Source: Ignavibacteriota bacterium (GTDB lineage Bacteria; Bacteroidota; Ignavibacteria; Kapaibacteriales; UBA2268). From it: 36,041 nucleotides of DNA. Position 1 is the first letter of the stretch. Every line of letters begins with the position of its first letter. Location of the stretch: assembly GCA_016219595.1 (NCBI GenBank), contig JACRLY010000073.1:1-36041 (forward strand), read 5' to 3'. The translations under genes were made by a program, and so were the position numbers. The notes beneath the pieces were generated by a model. It did no database searches, was not told the DNA's origin, and saw nothing but the letters and a program-made list of their open reading frames with translations. Positions 13,905 through 25,786 of this stretch are shown piece by piece.

Positions 13905-16277
13905 TTAATGACTAACCATGACTTTAAATGTACTCACCCTTTCAGTCCCAATCTGAATGATATAAAATCCATTTGCTATTCCACTCGTATTAATTTTTAC
14001 TTCGCTTGAATTTATATTCGTGTTTTCATAAACAATATTACCGAATAAATCGAAGAGCTTTATTGTTCCGGGAAGTCTTTCCCCACCGGACATATTAATA
14101 TAGAGCCAGTCATTTTTGGGAGTTTGTGTTATTTCAAAATTCTCATCTGCTTCATCATCAACGTTTGTTGCTTTAATAACATTTGCACGAACTTCGATGA
14201 AATATTCGTTATCTTCACCACCTCGCCAGAAACCTACTGAATCGGCGAACTGTCCTGCTTTACTCGCTTTGAATTTTATTCCTACTTTTGTTTCTCCCCC
14301 AGGAACAAACACAAGATTCGGGGAATCTGAAAATTCAAAACCCATGTTTCCGTTTTTGAATGTCAACTCATCATTAAACTGCTCTTCATTATCAGAACTG
14401 TTATTGATTGTAACTTCTCCCGTCAGTTCATTGCCCACTTTCAAGGTACCGAAATCAATATCGGATGAAAAAGTATATTTTGGTGAATAATAATTCACAA
14501 TAATCGTTGTGTCATTACCCCTGCGGTCTGAAAAAGTGGCAACAAGCCTGGCATCTTTCTTTGTGTCAATTACACTCGCACTCCAGCTTGTATAAGAATC
14601 GTTGCCAGGAATAAAATCGATATAATCGAATTCATAATTCTCACTCATATCGGGATGGAAAACAATCATAGACAGATTCGACCTGTCATCGCCCGGCGGC
14701 ATATCTTCGACCATTCCACCTGAGATTTTGCCATTGCCATAAACCGAGAATTTCGGATCGGGTGGTTCCGGGTCAGCTTTGCTCAAATCTCCAATTGCAG
14801 CGCTTGCAGGAAAACCATAGGAATCAAATGGAGCAAACCCATAAGCATAAGCAGCAATCGGTTCGTTGGATTTTAATTTATATACACCGTCATCCGGTAA
14901 CTTGATTGTAGTAACATTATAATAAACGTCATTAACAGGCTGTGAAAATCTTTTTGTTGACATAAGATTTAATTCATAAACTTTTCTCCATGTAAATTGT
15001 CCGTCAATTACCTGGGCAAATAGCAAGTCATCAGGTATATTCCCGCTAGGTGACTGATAAATAACATTTACATAATTTTCTGAAAATCCAAAACCGGATT
15101 TAATTCCAGGTGTATTAAAAATAATTTCTTTCTGATATTGTTCTAATGGAGTCAGTGCCATCTGGAATGGATCACTATTCACATAATCGTCTATTTGTCC
15201 TGTGTTGTACTGCATTATGTAAATCGGTTTATCCCCTGAAAAAACAATAGGTCTTGGTGCGTTTACATCGGCTCTCATTCTCAGCCAACCGTCTGTTTCA
15301 ATTCCTGAAGATTTTTTTAATTTAACAATAGGTATATTATCAGAATAAATGGTCGTTTCAGGTTCTCTTGCTAATATTTTTATTATCGAATTTTTTATCC
15401 TGTTTACTATAGGTGTATAATGATACTCTTTACCCCATGCGGATGAAGGTATTTCCATTTCTGTCAAGAAATCGCAATATGGAGTGTTCTCAGGCACATA
15501 AGCACAGTAATTACTTGATATTACCGAAACAGGTTTAGTAGCTGAGATTGTGCTCCCTGTCAGGTCAGCCCTTTGTCCTGCTGAACTAACGAGAAATACA
15601 TCGCCTTTATTTAACGTTACTGTTCTTGTTTCTCCGGGAATCATTCCACCACTTGTTCTTGTACTGTTGGTACCACCAAGTGTAAAACTCACTTCAGTCT
15701 GGTCAAAAGCCGAAACAATTCCTGAATAACTCGGAAGATATTGAATTCCATAATCGGAAACATCCGCCCAGGATGCAACTGTATATTCCTTCCCGAGAGC
15801 TGAAACAGGTATTCCAAGATAACCGTCACTAGTAAACTTAAAGCGTGTAATTCCATAACATATAATCGGGTAATCAGCATATACATGAATACCATATCCG
15901 CGAAAAACAGTATCCGGTAATGGAACTTCCCTGTCTGTCTTTCTGTAACATTGTCCAATTATTGGAGGAAATGTAAATTCAATTATATCGTTCGGTACAG
16001 TCATTTTTTCCATACGAAAATCCTTACCGGGTACTTCCACAGTAACCATAGTTGCTATCGCTGAAGATACATAAAGTTTTAAGGCATTACCCGCATTTTC
16101 CGTTTCCCAGCAGGGATTGAAAGTCAGCCAGAATTCCTGACCTGCATTACCTGCACCGAGAAGTTCCGGTAATTGTTCTTTGAATTCAGTGAGATTGAAT
16201 TCTTTGGCAAATACATTAGTTGTGTTCAGCACTGTGAAAACAAGTGCCAAAAGCAGTGAGAATAATTTTGCATTCAT
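13905..16277 (-). CDS. Secreted IgGFc-binding-like protein with choice-of-anchor region and T9SS-type C-terminus
   Basis: The protein has 790 residues with a signal peptide of about 24. Residues about 35-480 resemble the IgGFc-binding N-terminal family: GQEFWLTFNPCWE, ICYGITRFKFTSDGYLGIP, ALGKEYTVASW, and later PVSVISSNYCAYVP. Residues about 510-690 repeat the domain of the downstream gene (GGMVEDMPPGDDRSNL, WSASVIDTKKDARLVATF, DIDFGTLKVGNELTG). The C-terminus (about 715-790) has the sorting-domain pattern (LFDLFGNIVYEN, IANGFYIIQIG), but the usual PNPA entry reads QTPKNDWLYI, so it is a divergent CTD. Immunoglobulin binding itself should not be assumed; the domain is widespread in environmental bacteria and is best read as an adhesin-type module. 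Confidence 0.83.
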   Translation of the reverse strand: MNAKLFSLLLALVFTVLNTTNVFAKEFNLTEFKEQLPELLGAGNAGQEFWLTFNPCWETENAGNALKLYVSSAIATMVTVEVPGKDFRMEKMTVPNDIIEFTFPPIIGQCYRKTDREVPLPDTVFRGYGIHVYADYPIICYGITRFKFTSDGYLGIPVSALGKEYTVASWADVSDYGIQYLPSYSGIVSAFDQTEVSFTLGGTNSTRTSGGMIPGETRTVTLNKGDVFLVSSAGQRADLTGSTISATKPVSVISSNYCAYVPENTPYCDFLTEMEIPSSAWGKEYHYTPIVNRIKNSIIKILAREPETTIYSDNIPIVKLKKSSGIETDGWLRMRADVNAPRPIVFSGDKPIYIMQYNTGQIDDYVNSDPFQMALTPLEQYQKEIIFNTPGIKSGFGFSENYVNVIYQSPSGNIPDDLLFAQVIDGQFTWRKVYELNLMSTKRFSQPVNDVYYNVTTIKLPDDGVYKLKSNEPIAAYAYGFAPFDSYGFPASAAIGDLSKADPEPPDPKFSVYGNGKISGGMVEDMPPGDDRSNLSMIVFHPDMSENYEFDYIDFIPGNDSYTSWSASVIDTKKDARLVATFSDRRGNDTTIIVNYYSPKYTFSSDIDFGTLKVGNELTGEVTINNSSDNEEQFNDELTFKNGNMGFEFSDSPNLVFVPGGETKVGIKFKASKAGQFADSVGFWRGGEDNEYFIEVRANVIKATNVDDEADENFEITQTPKNDWLYINMSGGERLPGTIKLFDLFGNIVYENTNINSSEVKINTSGIANGFYIIQIGTERVSTFKVMVSH

Positions 16278-19032: not shown

Positions 19033-19758
19033 TTATTTATTTTTCTGTGAAGGAATAACTTTCTCAGGGTCACTCACCACGCTGCTTCCCTGAATCGAAA
19101 TTTCAGGGTATTCGGGATGAGAGGTACGCATTTTCAGTGCACATCCGAAATAACCTTTTGCCTTGGGCATCACTGTTGCAATGATTTCTTTTTCTTCATG
19201 CGGCTTCAATTCAAATTCATTCGGAATATTTATTTTGACATAATCAGGTGCAATTGAAACATCTTTGAAAGTAACACTTTGGGAAGAATTGTTTTTAAGT
19301 GTTAGTTTCGATGAAGCTTCAGTACCTAATTTCATATCTTCAAAATTGAAATGCTGGCTTGGTAAAATTTCAATATCAACCTGAACTTCTGCTTTGAGAT
19401 ACAAATTCATATTCGGACTTTTAGGGTCATTCGAAGCTATGAAAACTGTTTTCACTACAGGTCCCGATTTACTTGAAATATTAAGGCGTACATCGAGTTT
19501 TGCCGACTGCCCGGGTTCGAGCTGGCTTGTATCGAGCAGTACTGCCGTGCATCCGCAGGAAGGTCTGACATTACTTATGAATAATTTTTCATTGCCTGTG
19601 TTTTTCAGGATGATTGTTGCTTTCAAAGGTGATTCTTTCGGTTTCACAACATTCCAATTGTAAGAATCCCCTCCTACAATTTCGAGTTTCGGCTGCGCAT
19701 TGACACTGTCAATAAAAACCAGTGCCATAATAAATAAGCTTATTAATATTCTATACAT
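19033..19758 (-). CDS. DUF1573 exported protein
   Basis: This 241-residue protein has a signal peptide (MYRILISLFIMALVFIDSVNA, cleavage near 21). Residues about 35-125 are a DUF1573 Ig-like domain: YNWNVVKPKESPLKATIILK, then NVRPSCGCTAVL with the signature CGCT cysteines, and IASNDPKSPNMNLYLKAEV. A second Ig-like domain, FEDMKLGTEASSKLTLKN, covers about 138-230. DUF1573 proteins are common periplasmic or surface proteins in Bacteroidota; their molecular role is not established. It follows the anti-sigma-like gene by 41 bases on the same strand with no terminator between, so it is probably the third gene of the sigma operon. It has no T9SS CTD. Confidence 0.88.
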   Translation of the reverse strand: MYRILISLFIMALVFIDSVNAQPKLEIVGGDSYNWNVVKPKESPLKATIILKNTGNEKLFISNVRPSCGCTAVLLDTSQLEPGQSAKLDVRLNISSKSGPVVKTVFIASNDPKSPNMNLYLKAEVQVDIEILPSQHFNFEDMKLGTEASSKLTLKNNSSQSVTFKDVSIAPDYVKINIPNEFELKPHEEKEIIATVMPKAKGYFGCALKMRTSHPEYPEISIQGSSVVSDPEKVIPSQKNK

Positions 19759-19799
19759 TTAATTACTCCTCAATAGATATATTTTTACAAAATTAACAT

Positions 19800-21278
19800 T
19801 CATTTACTAATTATGATTTTTTGTACCACCTGTTCGCCGTTTGGCGACTGTATTGCAACGAGGTAAATACCATTCTCCAAATCAGGTAAAGCAAAATTAA
19901 CCGTTTTTTCCCCGGCATCTAATTTCATACTCAAAATAGGTGAAAGCATACATCCTCCGTTTACATCATGCAATGACACTGAAATTTCACGTCTTTCGCT
20001 CAAATTTATTTTTATGTTCACAATATCCTTAGCCGGATTAGGATAAATAGTTGCTTTCGTTATAGCACCCGATTGCATTCTGCATATATCTAAGAGGGAT
20101 TGTTTTCCCTTAAGACCTTTACAGGCATCCTCGGGTTGAATTTCATCATTTTTGATTTTGTTGATATAAGAAATTTCTCTTTGAATTTGCTTCCTGTATC
20201 TTTCGGGTAACGCAGAAAGAAGTTCTTCATTAGGATAAAGGAATAATATAAATTTATCCAGATCCAGAACAGGTTTTGCTTCTTCAACATCCTTCGGGTC
20301 AATTCTTATCGGTATAAGATTATTGGTTATTAACGAATTTTGAGTATTAACCAAATTCCACATGTCTTCTGCCAAATTATTAATCTGTTCAATATCATTT
20401 TGACTGATTAACCTTGAAATATTTTTTGTCTTGTCTTCGAAAATCATTTTATCATTTATGAACTTTTTCCCAAGTGAATCATCAGAAAATAGTAAAACAG
20501 GGGAAGCTACTGAATGTATTGTAGAACTTCCGTCCTTAAAACGACAGGTATAAACTACAGGCTGAACATGATTATAAACAGGATTATTGATGTCAAATTC
20601 CCTTATACTTACAATTTCTTCCGATGAAACCGAATTTTGAATTGTATTTTTATAAGTAACAAGATAGAAGTTCCCTTCTTTTACCATACCGCCGTTTTCT
20701 TTAATAAATTCAGAATCAGATTCTGTAAGCTGTGTTTTGATTTCCTGTGTGATTATTTCGACAGAGTTTTTATTTATGAAAACATTCAGTTTCTTAAATT
20801 CATCATAAGTCAAATTCAAAGTACTAATGCCATTAATATCATAGTTGTCATTATTTTCGTTAATAATTTTATCATGAATTGTTATTTCATCACTCATTAT
20901 TAATACATCTTTCGCGGTTTCATTAGCGGAAGAAAGTATTGGTTTATTTTCTGTGTGCATGACAATTTTATTATCGACATCAAGTGTTGATTCAACACCC
21001 TGCATTTGATTAATCCGGAGAGGAGTATTCCTATTTTTCAATGAATAGTTGTCAGAAGCATTGTTATGGCTGAAAAACCATAACAATCCGCTTGCAATAA
21101 TTAATGAACCGATAGCTGCCATAGTGATTAACCTCCAATTTAAATTTATAAGACCACCTGAATCCGGTTGATTCAGCTTAATATTTACTGCAAGTTGCTT
21201 CAATTCATCCACATTGGAAATTGGAATTTCATTTTTATGTTTTCTTGCAGTTACTAACAGGTTTTCTATTTTTTTCAT
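19800..21278 (-). CDS. Single-pass membrane protein in anti-sigma position carrying a T9SS sorting domain
   Basis: This 492-residue protein is encoded 8 bases after the ECF sigma gene. Residues 1-49 are charged and soluble (KKIENLLVTARKHKNEIPIS), with no cleavable signal. Residues 50-69 are one transmembrane helix (LITMAAIGSLIIASGLLWFF). The remaining 420 residues would be periplasmic. Residues about 410-492 match a T9SS type A sorting domain: TIYPNPAKDIVNIKI, VSLHDVNGGC, LENGIYLVAIQ, VVQKIIISK. Short cytoplasmic N-terminus, single helix and large outside domain next to an ECF sigma is the usual anti-sigma layout, but I see no zinc (HxxxCxxC) motif or clear anti-sigma fold, so sigma binding is inferred. 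A T9SS CTD on such a protein is unusual. Alternatively it could be ordinary cargo with an atypically long signal anchor. Confidence 0.75.
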   Translation of the reverse strand: MKKIENLLVTARKHKNEIPISNVDELKQLAVNIKLNQPDSGGLINLNWRLITMAAIGSLIIASGLLWFFSHNNASDNYSLKNRNTPLRINQMQGVESTLDVDNKIVMHTENKPILSSANETAKDVLIMSDEITIHDKIINENNDNYDINGISTLNLTYDEFKKLNVFINKNSVEIITQEIKTQLTESDSEFIKENGGMVKEGNFYLVTYKNTIQNSVSSEEIVSIREFDINNPVYNHVQPVVYTCRFKDGSSTIHSVASPVLLFSDDSLGKKFINDKMIFEDKTKNISRLISQNDIEQINNLAEDMWNLVNTQNSLITNNLIPIRIDPKDVEEAKPVLDLDKFILFLYPNEELLSALPERYRKQIQREISYINKIKNDEIQPEDACKGLKGKQSLLDICRMQSGAITKATIYPNPAKDIVNIKINLSERREISVSLHDVNGGCMLSPILSMKLDAGEKTVNFALPDLENGIYLVAIQSPNGEQVVQKIIISK

Positions 21279-21286
21279 ATAAATAT

Positions 21287-21778
21287 CTATTCGATTGATA
21301 ATAATTTTCTCAAATTTTTTCTCGCCCTGAAAATCCTGATTTTCACATTTGGCAAACTTATTCCCTGAATTTTTGCGATTTCTTTATCTTTGAATCCCAT
21401 GATTTCAGATAAAATGAACGCTTCCTTTTGTTCCGTACTTATTTTTCCCATGGCATCATAAAGTAAATTCAGGTCCGCCAGTTCATCCGGTCCAATCTGC
21501 TTGCAATACAATTCGTCAAATTGTTGAGGTTCAGCAACAGTAACTCTCCTGTTTTGTTTCAGGATATCACAATATTTCCTTTTTGCTATTGTGAACATAT
21601 AACTTTTAAAAGAACCATTACTATTCAAATTACTAAACGAAGACAATCCTTCGATAATAGTTTCATTAACCAAATCCCTCGAGAAATCCCTGTTACGGGT
21701 TATATGCAAAGCAAATTGCTCGAGGTCTTTCAGAACCGGTTTGACAAGTTCAAAATATTTTTCTTTCAAATTTTCCAT
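21287..21778 (-). CDS. ECF-type RNA polymerase sigma factor
   Basis: The protein has 163 residues. Region 2 is at about 20-85 (FALHITRNRDFSRDLVNETI, with SFKSYMFTIAKRKYCDILKQN as 2.3-2.4). Region 4 is at about 105-160 (LLYDAMGKISTEQKEAFILS, then EIMGFKDKEIAKIQGIS and LPNVKIRIFRARKNLRKLL, the -35-binding helix-turn-helix). It directs RNA polymerase to a specific promoter set. It is first in an apparent operon with the membrane protein that follows after 8 bases. No TAnnTTTG promoter is visible in the 90 bases before it, so it may be transcribed from a different, perhaps self-recognised, promoter. It belongs to the Bacteroidota-type ECF group by feel; the subgroup was not determined. Confidence 0.92.
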   Translation of the reverse strand: MENLKEKYFELVKPVLKDLEQFALHITRNRDFSRDLVNETIIEGLSSFSNLNSNGSFKSYMFTIAKRKYCDILKQNRRVTVAEPQQFDELYCKQIGPDELADLNLLYDAMGKISTEQKEAFILSEIMGFKDKEIAKIQGISLPNVKIRIFRARKNLRKLLSIE

Positions 21779-21854
21779 TCAACCGTTTTTCTTTTGATAT
21801 AGTCCGTTTAAATACTGAAAAGGTTACATGTCATATTTATTTTTATTTTATATT

Positions 21855-21943: not shown

Positions 21944-24900
21944 TTAATACAGAATCATTTTACCCGAATAAGTCTTATTACCAACATTCAACCTGTAAAT
22001 ATACATGCCCTGATTAGATTTAATTCCATCAGATTGGATACCGTTCCAAACTGCAAATTTCCTTCCTTCGGACTGACCTTCATCGACAAGAGTAGTAATC
22101 AGATTCCCCATGAGGTCATAAATCCTGAGTGAAACATGTTCAGGTTCTGATAATTCATAATAAATAGCAGTTGATGAACTGAAAGGATTTGGATAAACGG
22201 ATATAGCTGAATGTGAGTCCTCATCCTCAACAGAAATAGTGTTATAAGCACTTATAAAATCATTTTTAGTTTTTGTTGAATTTTGGGAACCGTCCGATAC
22301 TGTTAATGATACATTATATATACCCTGTACAGTATAGACATGAGAAGGATTTTGCTGCTGACTTGTTCCCCCGTCACCGAAATTCCATGTCCATGATATA
22401 GGATTACCGAAACTGAGGTCTGTAAAATTAACTGTTAGAGGAATTAGTCCTGAATTAGTATCGGCAGAGAAGGAAGCACCGAATAATTCATAAACAGAAA
22501 TATAATCATTTTTGCTGACCACTGAGGAATCTTCTTGATTCTTTACAATTAGAATAACTGTATAAATACCGGCATCAGTGTAAGTGTGTTTCGGGCTTTG
22601 TTCAGGAGAAGTCTCCCCGTCGCCGAAATCCCAAAGCCATGAAGTCGCTGTACCTTTGGTATGGTCTGTAAACTGAACTTCCAAAGGTTGAATTCCCTCT
22701 AGGGGTGTAGCTGAAAATTCGCCTTGAATCGAGATAACATTAATATATTTATCTTTCGATTCGGTATCCTGGTTATCAGCATTCGAAGCAGTAAGTGTAA
22801 CTCTATAAGAACCTGTGTTATTATAAATATGTAAGGGATTTTTTTCGCTTGAATTTTTCCCGTCACCAAAATCCCACCACCAAGAATTTGGATTGCCTTT
22901 CGATGAATCACTGAATTGAACTGCAAGAGGTGCAACTCCGGATAAAGGTGAGGCTCCGAAATCAGCCATAACGCTTGGGGGAGCGACTGTACCGGGTATA
23001 AGAATTTCGAAATCATCAACAATTCCTTCAGTCATTGTATATGGAACACTTTGAGAATTTATAATTGGCAGCACTGTAAATTTAAATCTCATTCTATTGG
23101 TTAATTTTACGTAATCATCAATTTTAACTAAAATTTTATACCATCCCCATGTGGAAGTATTTAAAGTATCGACAGGTATCCAGGAAGAACCGGCATTACT
23201 CGAAATTGAAAATATGAAAAGTGAACCGTTCTCAGGATTCGGCAGTTCAAATAAATTCCAAAATTCGTTCGTAAACCACCTGAAATATCTGACTATAGGA
23301 TTTGTTACATGAGATAAATCGTACAATCCGGAAATTAGTGTTGTTGTTCCATTCGGCATACCCTGCAATGCACTTTGAACATCATTAAGATATTCGAAAA
23401 AATTACTTGTCCTAATAGGTCTGTCAATAAAAACATTTGACCCGGTAACAAAACATTTATTACCGTTAATTGAATGGTCTTCACCGGGTTGCAGGGTATC
23501 TATATTATCACCGTTTTCAATTGATTCATCTTTTGGTACGGCTCTTTCCCAAACTCCATTGCTGGCATTATCATCGGGACTGCCCACAGACCAATTATTT
23601 TCAATTTCAAATTCTTCCTTGACAAAAGTATCATATCCGATAAGAAATTGATATGGTGTGAAATCAGGGTAATCAACTGTAAATTTAAAATTTCTTCCGC
23701 TTACGCTTTCTTTTGCATGTATATAATATTTTACCATAGTACCCGTTGGTAAAGCAGGAATTTCTGCCTTATATTTTGTATCTAAGGGGTCGTTTGAAAT
23801 TACCTTAATTGCCGGAATAAGATTGAGAGTTTTCATATTATCAATTGAATAAACTATATAAACCGAATCGGGATGGCTGTTTAAATAGTTCGGTTCCGAT
23901 TTCAAATTGAATTCAACTAAATAAGGTTCTGTTATGTTTTTTGTGTCTTCAAGCGGAGTATGTTCGAATGAAATTACCATCGCCAAATCTGTTCCAATAT
24001 GATGCATGTTGAATGCGGTACATATTTCCGATAGATGAGGAGTACCGTTGCTAAGGTCATTATCTCCACTTCCCTGGTTATCATCAGATACAATTGTTTC
24101 GAAAAACCAATCGTTGAAAGCAAGTCCGACATCTAAATTATCAGGAGTACCGTATTTTGCAAAATGAGAAACTTTCTCGACAATATCACGTGAGGTCAAT
24201 TTCTTAAAGTCCCAGAAGGCACCGGATAAAATCTGGCCGTCATGGTGGGATTCTCCATCAATGCTGTCAGGATAAATATTAATATTATTAAGCGTTCTGA
24301 TATTTTTATTGCTATCCGAGGCAAACGCACCTCTTCCTATCATCTCATCGTCAATCATTAAAGCTGAGCCGACATCGGCAGTTGCTTCATTACATGTTAA
24401 ATTCAACATCCCTACGTCAACTGTACCATTAATTTTGTCATATAACTGGTAATTTACATTGTGTGTGTATTCATGATATAATATAGAGGGTGTCTCCGTG
24501 AATTTATATTCGGGTAAATATGGTTCTTGAAAATAAATATCTGAACCTGCTGCTCCGGCATTGGGAGAAAAACTTGCCTGGATATATAAATTCACCTGTT
24601 TATCCAAACCATGAAACGAAGAATCAAGATTCTTCAAATAATCATGAATATATGTAGCATGATAATATAACATCCTCTCTTTAATATCTGAGTTATTATT
24701 ATTCCAGTTCAAGGCAAAATTAGCTCCCGGAGTCAGACTGCTTTCGTAATATGCAGTATCGGATTCATTTCCATAAAAGTCCATATATGATACTTTAGCC
24801 CAGGTCCCTTGCATTTTTGCTGAAATTGAATTCAATGAGGGAACATCTTTTGTAAATACTCCATTCTCATCAGCTACATTTCTTTCAGTACCAATGTTAA

Positions 24901-25786
24901 CATATTGATGGGGGAATGACTTTAATTGTTCAGTCTGATAAGAATATTTATCCTTTACCATTCCTTTGACATTGACAGTTGTATTGATTTCACATACCTT
25001 GTTAATTCTCCAGACGATATTGCCGGAATGTGCATCCACAAAGGAATTATAAAACCCTAATGGTTGTTTTGTTTCTACTTTGATGTCATACACAAGTTTG
25101 AAATCAACTTTACCTTTATTTTTAACAGGTAAAATATAAGTTTTTCCCTCCGATTGGGTAACATCTTTTTTTATATTGTATTTCAATCCGACAGAAGCTG
25201 TTTCCATTGCTTTTTGAAGTGGTACCGTTGGAGTTGTGCTTATATTAATATTATTATAATATTCTACTTTGAATGCCGTAACTTTTCCATCATCACGGAT
25301 TCTAAGCTCAACACCTGAAGTAAGGACTTCCAATCCCTCGTAAACCTGCTTGTACCCAACATACCAGAGCTTATTCACTTTTTTTGCTTTTGTCAATTTT
25401 AAATTGGATGGATTAATATTCAATACGGCAGAATTGACATTCAGGAATTGCATAGAGGCAGACTGAACATTGTCATTCGTTATATTGCTTACATTTTCTA
25501 TTTGAATAGGTTTGCCGAATGCCCTGAAGGGTGTCATAGTTGTCTTGTCAATCATCACACTCCATTTGCCATTGGCATTAAAAAAATCTTTCCATTCCGG
25601 ATTGCTTAAAGGAGCATTAGTAAAATTAGAAACGGTTTTAGTTTTATTTTTTTGTGACGGGAGTAAAATTGAGCCGTCTTTTTCAATAACAAAATTAGTT
25701 TTAGTTTTCGCAAACACAGGCTGGTCAATCAATACGAGAGAAATTACGATTGCTATAACCAGGAAAAATGCACTTCCCTTTTTCAT
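21944..25786 (-). CDS. Secreted gluzincin metalloprotease (M4/M36-like) with three PKD domains and T9SS sorting domain
   Basis: This is a 1280-residue preproprotein: signal peptide (about 1-26), then an FTP/PepSY-type propeptide (about 60-265; LWYVGYKQVYEGLEVLTSGV). The catalytic zinc site is H438-E-Y-T-H442, with the third ligand E467 in NEATADVGSAL. A conserved GESHHDGQILSGAFWDF follows, as in fungalysin-like M36 peptidases. Three PKD domains cover about 940-1190 (each with WDFGDG or WNFGDG and HxY), and a T9SS sorting domain covers about 1195-1280 (VYPNPFSSSTAIYYEL, IYDLMGNLITTLVDEG). It should be secreted, activated by propeptide removal and digest extracellular protein. The gene is complete and monocistronic by its terminator. 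M4 versus M36 assignment is uncertain by eye. Confidence 0.92.
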   Translation of the reverse strand: MKKGSAFFLVIAIVISLVLIDQPVFAKTKTNFVIEKDGSILLPSQKNKTKTVSNFTNAPLSNPEWKDFFNANGKWSVMIDKTTMTPFRAFGKPIQIENVSNITNDNVQSASMQFLNVNSAVLNINPSNLKLTKAKKVNKLWYVGYKQVYEGLEVLTSGVELRIRDDGKVTAFKVEYYNNINISTTPTVPLQKAMETASVGLKYNIKKDVTQSEGKTYILPVKNKGKVDFKLVYDIKVETKQPLGFYNSFVDAHSGNIVWRINKVCEINTTVNVKGMVKDKYSYQTEQLKSFPHQYVNIGTERNVADENGVFTKDVPSLNSISAKMQGTWAKVSYMDFYGNESDTAYYESSLTPGANFALNWNNNNSDIKERMLYYHATYIHDYLKNLDSSFHGLDKQVNLYIQASFSPNAGAAGSDIYFQEPYLPEYKFTETPSILYHEYTHNVNYQLYDKINGTVDVGMLNLTCNEATADVGSALMIDDEMIGRGAFASDSNKNIRTLNNINIYPDSIDGESHHDGQILSGAFWDFKKLTSRDIVEKVSHFAKYGTPDNLDVGLAFNDWFFETIVSDDNQGSGDNDLSNGTPHLSEICTAFNMHHIGTDLAMVISFEHTPLEDTKNITEPYLVEFNLKSEPNYLNSHPDSVYIVYSIDNMKTLNLIPAIKVISNDPLDTKYKAEIPALPTGTMVKYYIHAKESVSGRNFKFTVDYPDFTPYQFLIGYDTFVKEEFEIENNWSVGSPDDNASNGVWERAVPKDESIENGDNIDTLQPGEDHSINGNKCFVTGSNVFIDRPIRTSNFFEYLNDVQSALQGMPNGTTTLISGLYDLSHVTNPIVRYFRWFTNEFWNLFELPNPENGSLFIFSISSNAGSSWIPVDTLNTSTWGWYKILVKIDDYVKLTNRMRFKFTVLPIINSQSVPYTMTEGIVDDFEILIPGTVAPPSVMADFGASPLSGVAPLAVQFSDSSKGNPNSWWWDFGDGKNSSEKNPLHIYNNTGSYRVTLTASNADNQDTESKDKYINVISIQGEFSATPLEGIQPLEVQFTDHTKGTATSWLWDFGDGETSPEQSPKHTYTDAGIYTVILIVKNQEDSSVVSKNDYISVYELFGASFSADTNSGLIPLTVNFTDLSFGNPISWTWNFGDGGTSQQQNPSHVYTVQGIYNVSLTVSDGSQNSTKTKNDFISAYNTISVEDEDSHSAISVYPNPFSSSTAIYYELSEPEHVSLRIYDLMGNLITTLVDEGQSEGRKFAVWNGIQSDGIKSNQGMYIYRLNVGNKTYSGKMILY

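Follow-up and report, generated by a model that had tools for sequence, protein, structure and literature searches.

Single-pass membrane partners of ECF sigma factors that end in a T9SS sorting domain: a class-wide family of probable anti-sigma factors

Introduction

What holds and releases an ECF sigma factor whose neighbouring gene encodes not a recognised anti-sigma factor, but a membrane protein ending in a secretion signal? In Bacteroidetes, a recognised class I anti-sigma factor neighbours only about 6% of ECF sigma factors (PMC7406223), and for this reason the regulation of the remaining ones is an open question. The locus considered here poses it in an unusual form. It lies in a contig of an Ignavibacteriota bacterium (JACRLY010000073.1; 'the window' below is the whole analysed stretch of 36,041 nt), where an ECF sigma gene is followed by a gene for a single-pass membrane protein that carries a type A C-terminal sorting domain (CTD) of the T9SS. 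A reading made from the sequence alone had proposed that the CTD may be the sensor of an anti-sigma factor, such that T9SS cargo or machinery genes would be expressed according to secretion capacity. Here we use homologous loci, structure prediction and promoter searches to ask how much of this proposal stands, and what the partner protein might do instead.

Results

An ECF sigma gene with a membrane partner

The gene order that the sequence-only reading described holds on the minus strand: the ECF sigma gene (21287..21778), a gap of 8 nt, the ORF for the 492-aa partner (19800..21278) and then a DUF1573 gene (19033..19758). The sigma factor has 163 aa and consists of regions 2 and 4 only, with Pfam matches better than the cut-off to both Sigma70_r4_2 (E-value 4e-13) and Sigma70_r2 (8e-8), as expected of the ECF group. 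The DUF1573 protein (Pfam) begins with a signal-peptide-like stretch. A DUF1573 gene is the first or second gene 3' of the partner in only about a dozen homologous loci, a minority drawn from families f1, f4, f6, f9 and f13, and is therefore best described as a recurrent but optional member of the operon. Two other CTD proteins are encoded close by on the same strand, one with an IgGFc-binding domain (13905-16277) and the other a fungalysin-like metalloprotease with PKD repeats (21944-25786).

Pfam, hydropathy and AF2 bear out the anatomy first proposed for the partner, namely a short cytosolic N-terminus, one transmembrane (TM) helix and a CTD at the end. The only hydrophobic segment spans residues 50-68 (21075..21131) and falls within a helix that AF2, run on a 26-row family alignment, predicts at residues 46-72. 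In front of it lies the probable sigma-binding part (residues 1-45; 21144..21278), with a conserved LDxYFxxAK...E motif and two helices predicted at residues 2-14 and 23-33 with moderate to low pLDDT. Two helices within fewer than 50 residues correspond in size to a class II anti-sigma domain of the CnrY kind, although searches of Pfam and NCBIfam gave no match in the N-terminus, to an anti-sigma family or otherwise, and a profile search of solved structures found no anti-sigma factor. In one homologue (L071; G018:C49), the cytosolic part within the first 110 residues is enlarged by short repeats of the GTGNREQGTGN type. The N-terminus does not read as a cleavable Sec signal peptide, since in the long form about 50 conserved residues precede the TM helix; given the conserved motif, the two predicted helices and the adjacent sigma gene, we rejected a simple signal-peptide reading.

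Beyond the membrane, residues 72-149 (20832..21065) are predicted to be disordered (pLDDT < 50) and form a linker whose median length in the family is 90 residues. It leads into an ectodomain of mixed predicted structure and no known family (residues 150-405; 20064..20831). The family consensus runs from NLDxYFxxAK...E through the TM helix and linker to GI.xIxLtxeELekLGI, NKLIPxxI...ILWYxPTxEFI..LPER, an invariant cysteine (Cys386) and the CTD.

The CTD itself (residues 411-490; 19809..20048) is of the type A found in T9SS cargo. It gives the sole Pfam match of the protein, to Por_Secre_tail (E-value 8.9e-14; 52 bits, cut-off 27), as well as a TIGR04183 match (37.8 bits, cut-off 23). AF2 folds it as an Ig-type domain (residues 405-492, pLDDT about 90), whose structural matches in Foldseek include latent PorU (6za2) and a T9SS-bound RemA CTD (8gl6_D, TMt 0.59). 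Por_Secre_tail is present in all 26 aligned members, other Pfam families in none, and the CTDs conserve a YPNP motif and a C-terminal GEQAVQRIIIE-like motif. That the genome has a T9SS is indicated by SprA (SprA_N match), the one component searched for, and about 30 CTD proteins were found in it in one search.

A class-wide family paired with sigma genes

The genomes searched were draft MAGs, and the profile search of contigs worked with an 8-row alignment; the 26-row alignment was too divergent and a scan with the single protein gave no matches. Within its own genome the partner family has three paralogues, on contigs C59, C15 and C128, and a sigma gene immediately precedes every one of them. 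Region 2 of the sigma gene on C15 is interrupted in this assembly by an in-frame TAG (L031, ~5318, minus strand), which marks either a pseudogene or an assembly error.

The sigma neighbour, the single TM helix of predicted N-in topology and the CTD occur together well beyond this genome. An ECF sigma ORF lies upstream in 42 of 44 homologous loci of the GTDB family; in the 40 loci measured the gap ranges from -41 to +22 nt, and often the two ORFs overlap by ATGA. In the rest of the order, the sigma is upstream or fused in 37 of 40 sampled loci (36 within ~200 nt, and one fusion); the other three comprise one locus with a sigma gene ~1 kb away and two without, one of these at a contig edge. For other orders of the class, the count is 10/10 readable loci. 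Among 395 sampled genomes of the phylum, matches were confined to this class, and those relatives that bear names are Candidatus Kapaibacterium and Ignavibacteria MAGs. With three paralogues in one genome and dozens of homologues of the same layout, the design of the 492-aa protein is not due to chance: it is that of a large class-wide family, not a one-off.

Two exceptional members show how the parts can be recombined. In L159 (2268-4787, plus strand), sigma and partner are naturally fused in frame as a single ORF of 840 aa, in the order sigma, two-helix segment, TM helix, PpiC-type rotamase domain and CTD, the rotamase domain sitting within the ectodomain; the CTD of this distant member scores below the Pfam cut-off. 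AF2 predicted both N-terminal helices of the fusion but no confident dock on the sigma (pTM 0.41), in a run on an alignment with trimmed sigma rows that carried no covariation for the partner N-terminus, because the partner N-termini aligned wrongly, with the sigma region of the fusion. Conversely, L164 (G107:C21) has an ordinary signal peptide, the ectodomain and the CTD, and neither a sigma nor the cytosolic part, so the ectodomain and CTD can exist as a separate secreted protein.

A putative promoter motif at the sigma operons

Upstream of the sigma genes we found a common motif, TG(A/T/C)AAC(C/T)TTTTT-N12-13-(C)ACTTA, whose dyad CTTTT-N14-ACTTA occurs in 13 of 41 sigma upstreams; in shuffled sequences the best dyad reached 4-5. 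The putative ECF promoter of the window reads TGTAACCTTTT-N13-GACTAT (21799..21829, minus strand). That an ECF-type motif is common to the sigma genes implies their autoregulation. In its strict form the motif has three sites in the genome, of which two belong to the sigma operons on C15 and C128, and 13 sites match the backward pattern that served as a control; a looser form has six, including two at C59 and C128, and the variant in the window is unique. Further candidate targets, on C58 and C94, encode secreted proteins, the first VIT-domain-like and the second of 211 aa. Behind the sites found in these scans of the genome lies no known gene of the T9SS machinery, and the scans thus lend no support to the idea that T9SS genes share a promoter recognised by this sigma or are under its control.

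One genome (G028) has a consensus-like promoter 117 nt before the start of htrA (L211; G028:C2:421106-421132, minus strand), and a weaker site occupies the corresponding position in G030. We considered htrA as a conserved regulon member and rejected it: 30 upstream regions of htrA orthologues displayed no general enrichment (median p 0.49), and the site, seen in genus g17, is no general feature of the family.

A predicted internal start at the membrane boundary

Where the TM helix begins, the partner gene contains an in-frame ATG (Met53; 21120..21122), a predicted second start, and 9 nt before it a GGAGG Shine-Dalgarno (SD) sequence (21132..21136) with a duplex energy of -10.0. An ATG occupies this position in 37 of 40 family members. 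Few of the first hundred residues are as well conserved as the boundary methionine; the residues preceding it vary, and the SD is nonetheless kept in most members.

We compared SD strength with that of synonymous-codon controls for 32 representatives that share less than 50% identity in their first 110 residues. Their duplex energies averaged -6.40, a value reached by none of 1000 synonymous-codon sets (-4.26 +/- 0.31); other in-frame ATGs averaged about -0.9. An energy of -5 was reached by 81% of the representatives against 44% after synonymous-codon randomisation; counted over internal sites the share is 81-84%, and over other in-frame ATGs it is 7-8%. The spacing from motif to ATG is mostly 7-10 nt, and the same SD is encoded by quite different residues (NWRLIT, RGDFK, YGVNK, AGGII and GRHLF). 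Eight other ECF sigma partners in the same genome, which end in a barrel-like domain (see Discussion), have an ATG at the site in one case and an SD in none. Since the observed SDs are stronger than the codon-randomised controls in 1000/1000 sets, the lineage of the window probably makes a second product that lacks the sigma-binding part. This short form is not universal, because several sister families have a weak internal SD or none at all: the SD is clear in f11, L154 and L159, missing from f7 and most of f13, and mixed in others. Starting from Met53, most members would have no basic residue before the hydrophobic stretch and no obvious signal peptidase site.

Discussion

We consider it probable that the locus encodes an autoregulated ECF sigma factor together with its cognate anti-sigma factor, a single-pass, Dma-like protein whose outer end is addressed to the T9SS. 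The sequence-only reading was thus right about the sigma neighbour, about an N-terminus that is not a signal peptide and about the fold of the CTD, and its proposal that T9SS genes are the output found no support.

The gene pairing, the topology features, the identity and predicted fold of the CTD, the linker, the common promoter motif and the conserved internal SD and ATG can all be read from the DNA, and it is from these that we infer sigma binding, engagement by the T9SS, a signal, a release mechanism and a function for the short form. Residues 1-45 would probably hold the sigma at the inner membrane, where the TM helix would anchor the partner. The disordered linker, typically 70-150 residues, would be long enough to span to the outer membrane, so that the ectodomain and CTD could be presented to the T9SS and would probably be carried outward by it, with the CTD taking the place of a Dma-type beta-barrel as the route to the outer membrane. 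To our knowledge, export by the T9SS is without precedent for a substrate anchored in the inner membrane. In the family of the window, the short form would lack the sigma-binding part and retain the TM helix, linker, ectodomain and CTD, and it may determine how many of the competing molecules bound to the T9SS hold a sigma. Release of the sigma would presumably follow proteolysis, as it does for IutY (PMC5411451). In its fullest form, this becomes a model of class-wide trans-envelope anti-sigma factors, in which the T9SS would build the receptor by taking its outer end to the cell surface, and another product of the same gene, one that lacks the sigma-binding part, would vie for the same export or ligand and thereby determine the switch point. 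We put this forward tentatively, as a possibility that is less likely than not.

A periplasmic version of the first proposal for this locus would keep the partner in the inner membrane and periplasm, with its CTD as a decoy on the periplasmic side of the T9SS; saturation with cargo would displace the CTD, and the anti-sigma factor would then be cut or relax and free the sigma. The same anatomy would serve this arrangement, CTDs are known T9SS signals, complete export is made unlikely by the inner-membrane anchor, and PorXY-SigP control in P. gingivalis receives input from a CTD protein, PorA (PMC7712824). Against it speaks a consensus promoter that in this genome lies almost only at sigma operons and not at T9SS genes. 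Genomes also hold several paralogues whose ectodomains diverge, for which the sensing of particular ligands or clients is a better fit than one general load sensor, and we regard this version as rather unlikely. A different objection would grant the pairing with sigma and deny the link with the T9SS, the C-terminal Ig domain being merely structural or ligand-binding. CTD-like Ig folds do resemble many unrelated beta-sandwich domains in Foldseek, and L159 falls below the Pfam cut-off; that every aligned member matches Por_Secre_tail with its two motifs conserved, in a genome that has SprA and many CTD proteins, and that L164 retains the same ectodomain and CTD behind a signal peptide and without a sigma, makes this quite improbable in our view.

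It could also be argued that the partner is ordinary T9SS cargo, co-transcribed with a sigma gene by chance, and that its first 50 residues are a long signal-peptide n-region. Such cargo normally has signal peptides, and the internal start would yield a form of that kind, yet the N-terminal segment has a motif and two predicted helices of its own, adjacency to sigma persists across families and orders, and a sigma fusion exists; we give this reading hardly any credence. The final alternative bears on the second product only. The SD and the methionine at the TM boundary might be by-products of positive-inside K/R-G residues, or of a translational pause for membrane targeting, with no start codon involved. 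Local residues alone do raise SD-likeness (a synonymous null of -4.3 against -0.9 at other ATGs), and several sister families keep the methionine without the SD. Against this, the observed SDs exceed all of the synonymous sets, their spacing to the ATG is mostly that given above and unrelated residues encode the same SD, while a pause would need no ATG; we therefore regard a by-product as unlikely.

If an anti-sigma factor with a T9SS-addressed outer end is indeed what the partner is, the family would offer one answer, for a whole class, to the question of how such ECF sigma factors are regulated. Should the CTD prove functional, it would be the first direct wiring of a sigma to the T9SS as far as the searched literature goes, and it would raise the question of whether the T9SS can handle a substrate anchored in the inner membrane. 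The conserved internal start leads to a testable prediction, that each such anti-sigma gene gives two products. We found neither a T9SS-CTD anti-sigma factor nor a dual-start anti-sigma factor in the literature within the reach of our search, which lay outside most subscription papers.

Several known systems share individual features with the partner. CnrY has a class II anti-sigma domain, a short cytosolic two-helix domain with a single TM helix, and adjoins its ECF sigma (PMC4598750, PMC7406223), all of which recalls the present arrangement; it differs in working with the metal sensor CnrX and in lacking a large ectodomain or CTD, and has no detectable sequence relation to the partner. PorA is likewise a T9SS CTD protein that feeds information to an ECF sigma: its CTD binds PorV, and it informs SigP via the PorXY two-component system (PMC7712824). 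However, PorA combines a signal peptide, a lectin-like Ig domain and a CTD and acts through PorXY, a description that does not apply to the 492-aa protein; it has no TM helix or sigma-binding part and occurs only in Porphyromonas (PMC7712824). IutY of Pseudomonas putida joins sigma and anti-sigma in one single-pass protein, as L159 does, and its sigma is freed by Prc and RseP (PMC5411451). Unlike L159, IutY belongs to TonB-dependent cell-surface signalling, has another periplasmic domain and involves no T9SS.

The remaining comparison is with Dma, the type of anti-sigma factor that Pardue and co-workers are said to have described in 2024 and that a beta-barrel reportedly anchors in the outer membrane. 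By this account, Dma resembles the partner in having an ECF sigma, a cytosolic N-terminus, one inner-membrane helix, a long linker and a C-terminal part bound for the outer membrane, and in coming from Bacteroidota. In contrast to Dma, the partner has a T9SS CTD instead of the outer-membrane beta-barrel, a short two-helix N-terminus and an internal start codon. The genome studied here also encodes eight more ECF sigma factors, each followed by a partner of 378-463 aa (L184, L186, L189, L190, L193, L197, L199 and L201). These eight partners have about 95 cytosolic residues, one TM helix and a barrel-like C-terminus ending in F, in which they resemble Dma, and their linkers are similar in length to those of the CTD family. 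Because CTD partners and barrel-type partners occur together in one genome, the comparison suggests a general rule, that anti-sigma factors here co-opt BAM or the T9SS, both of them delivery routes to the outer membrane, in order to position their sensor.
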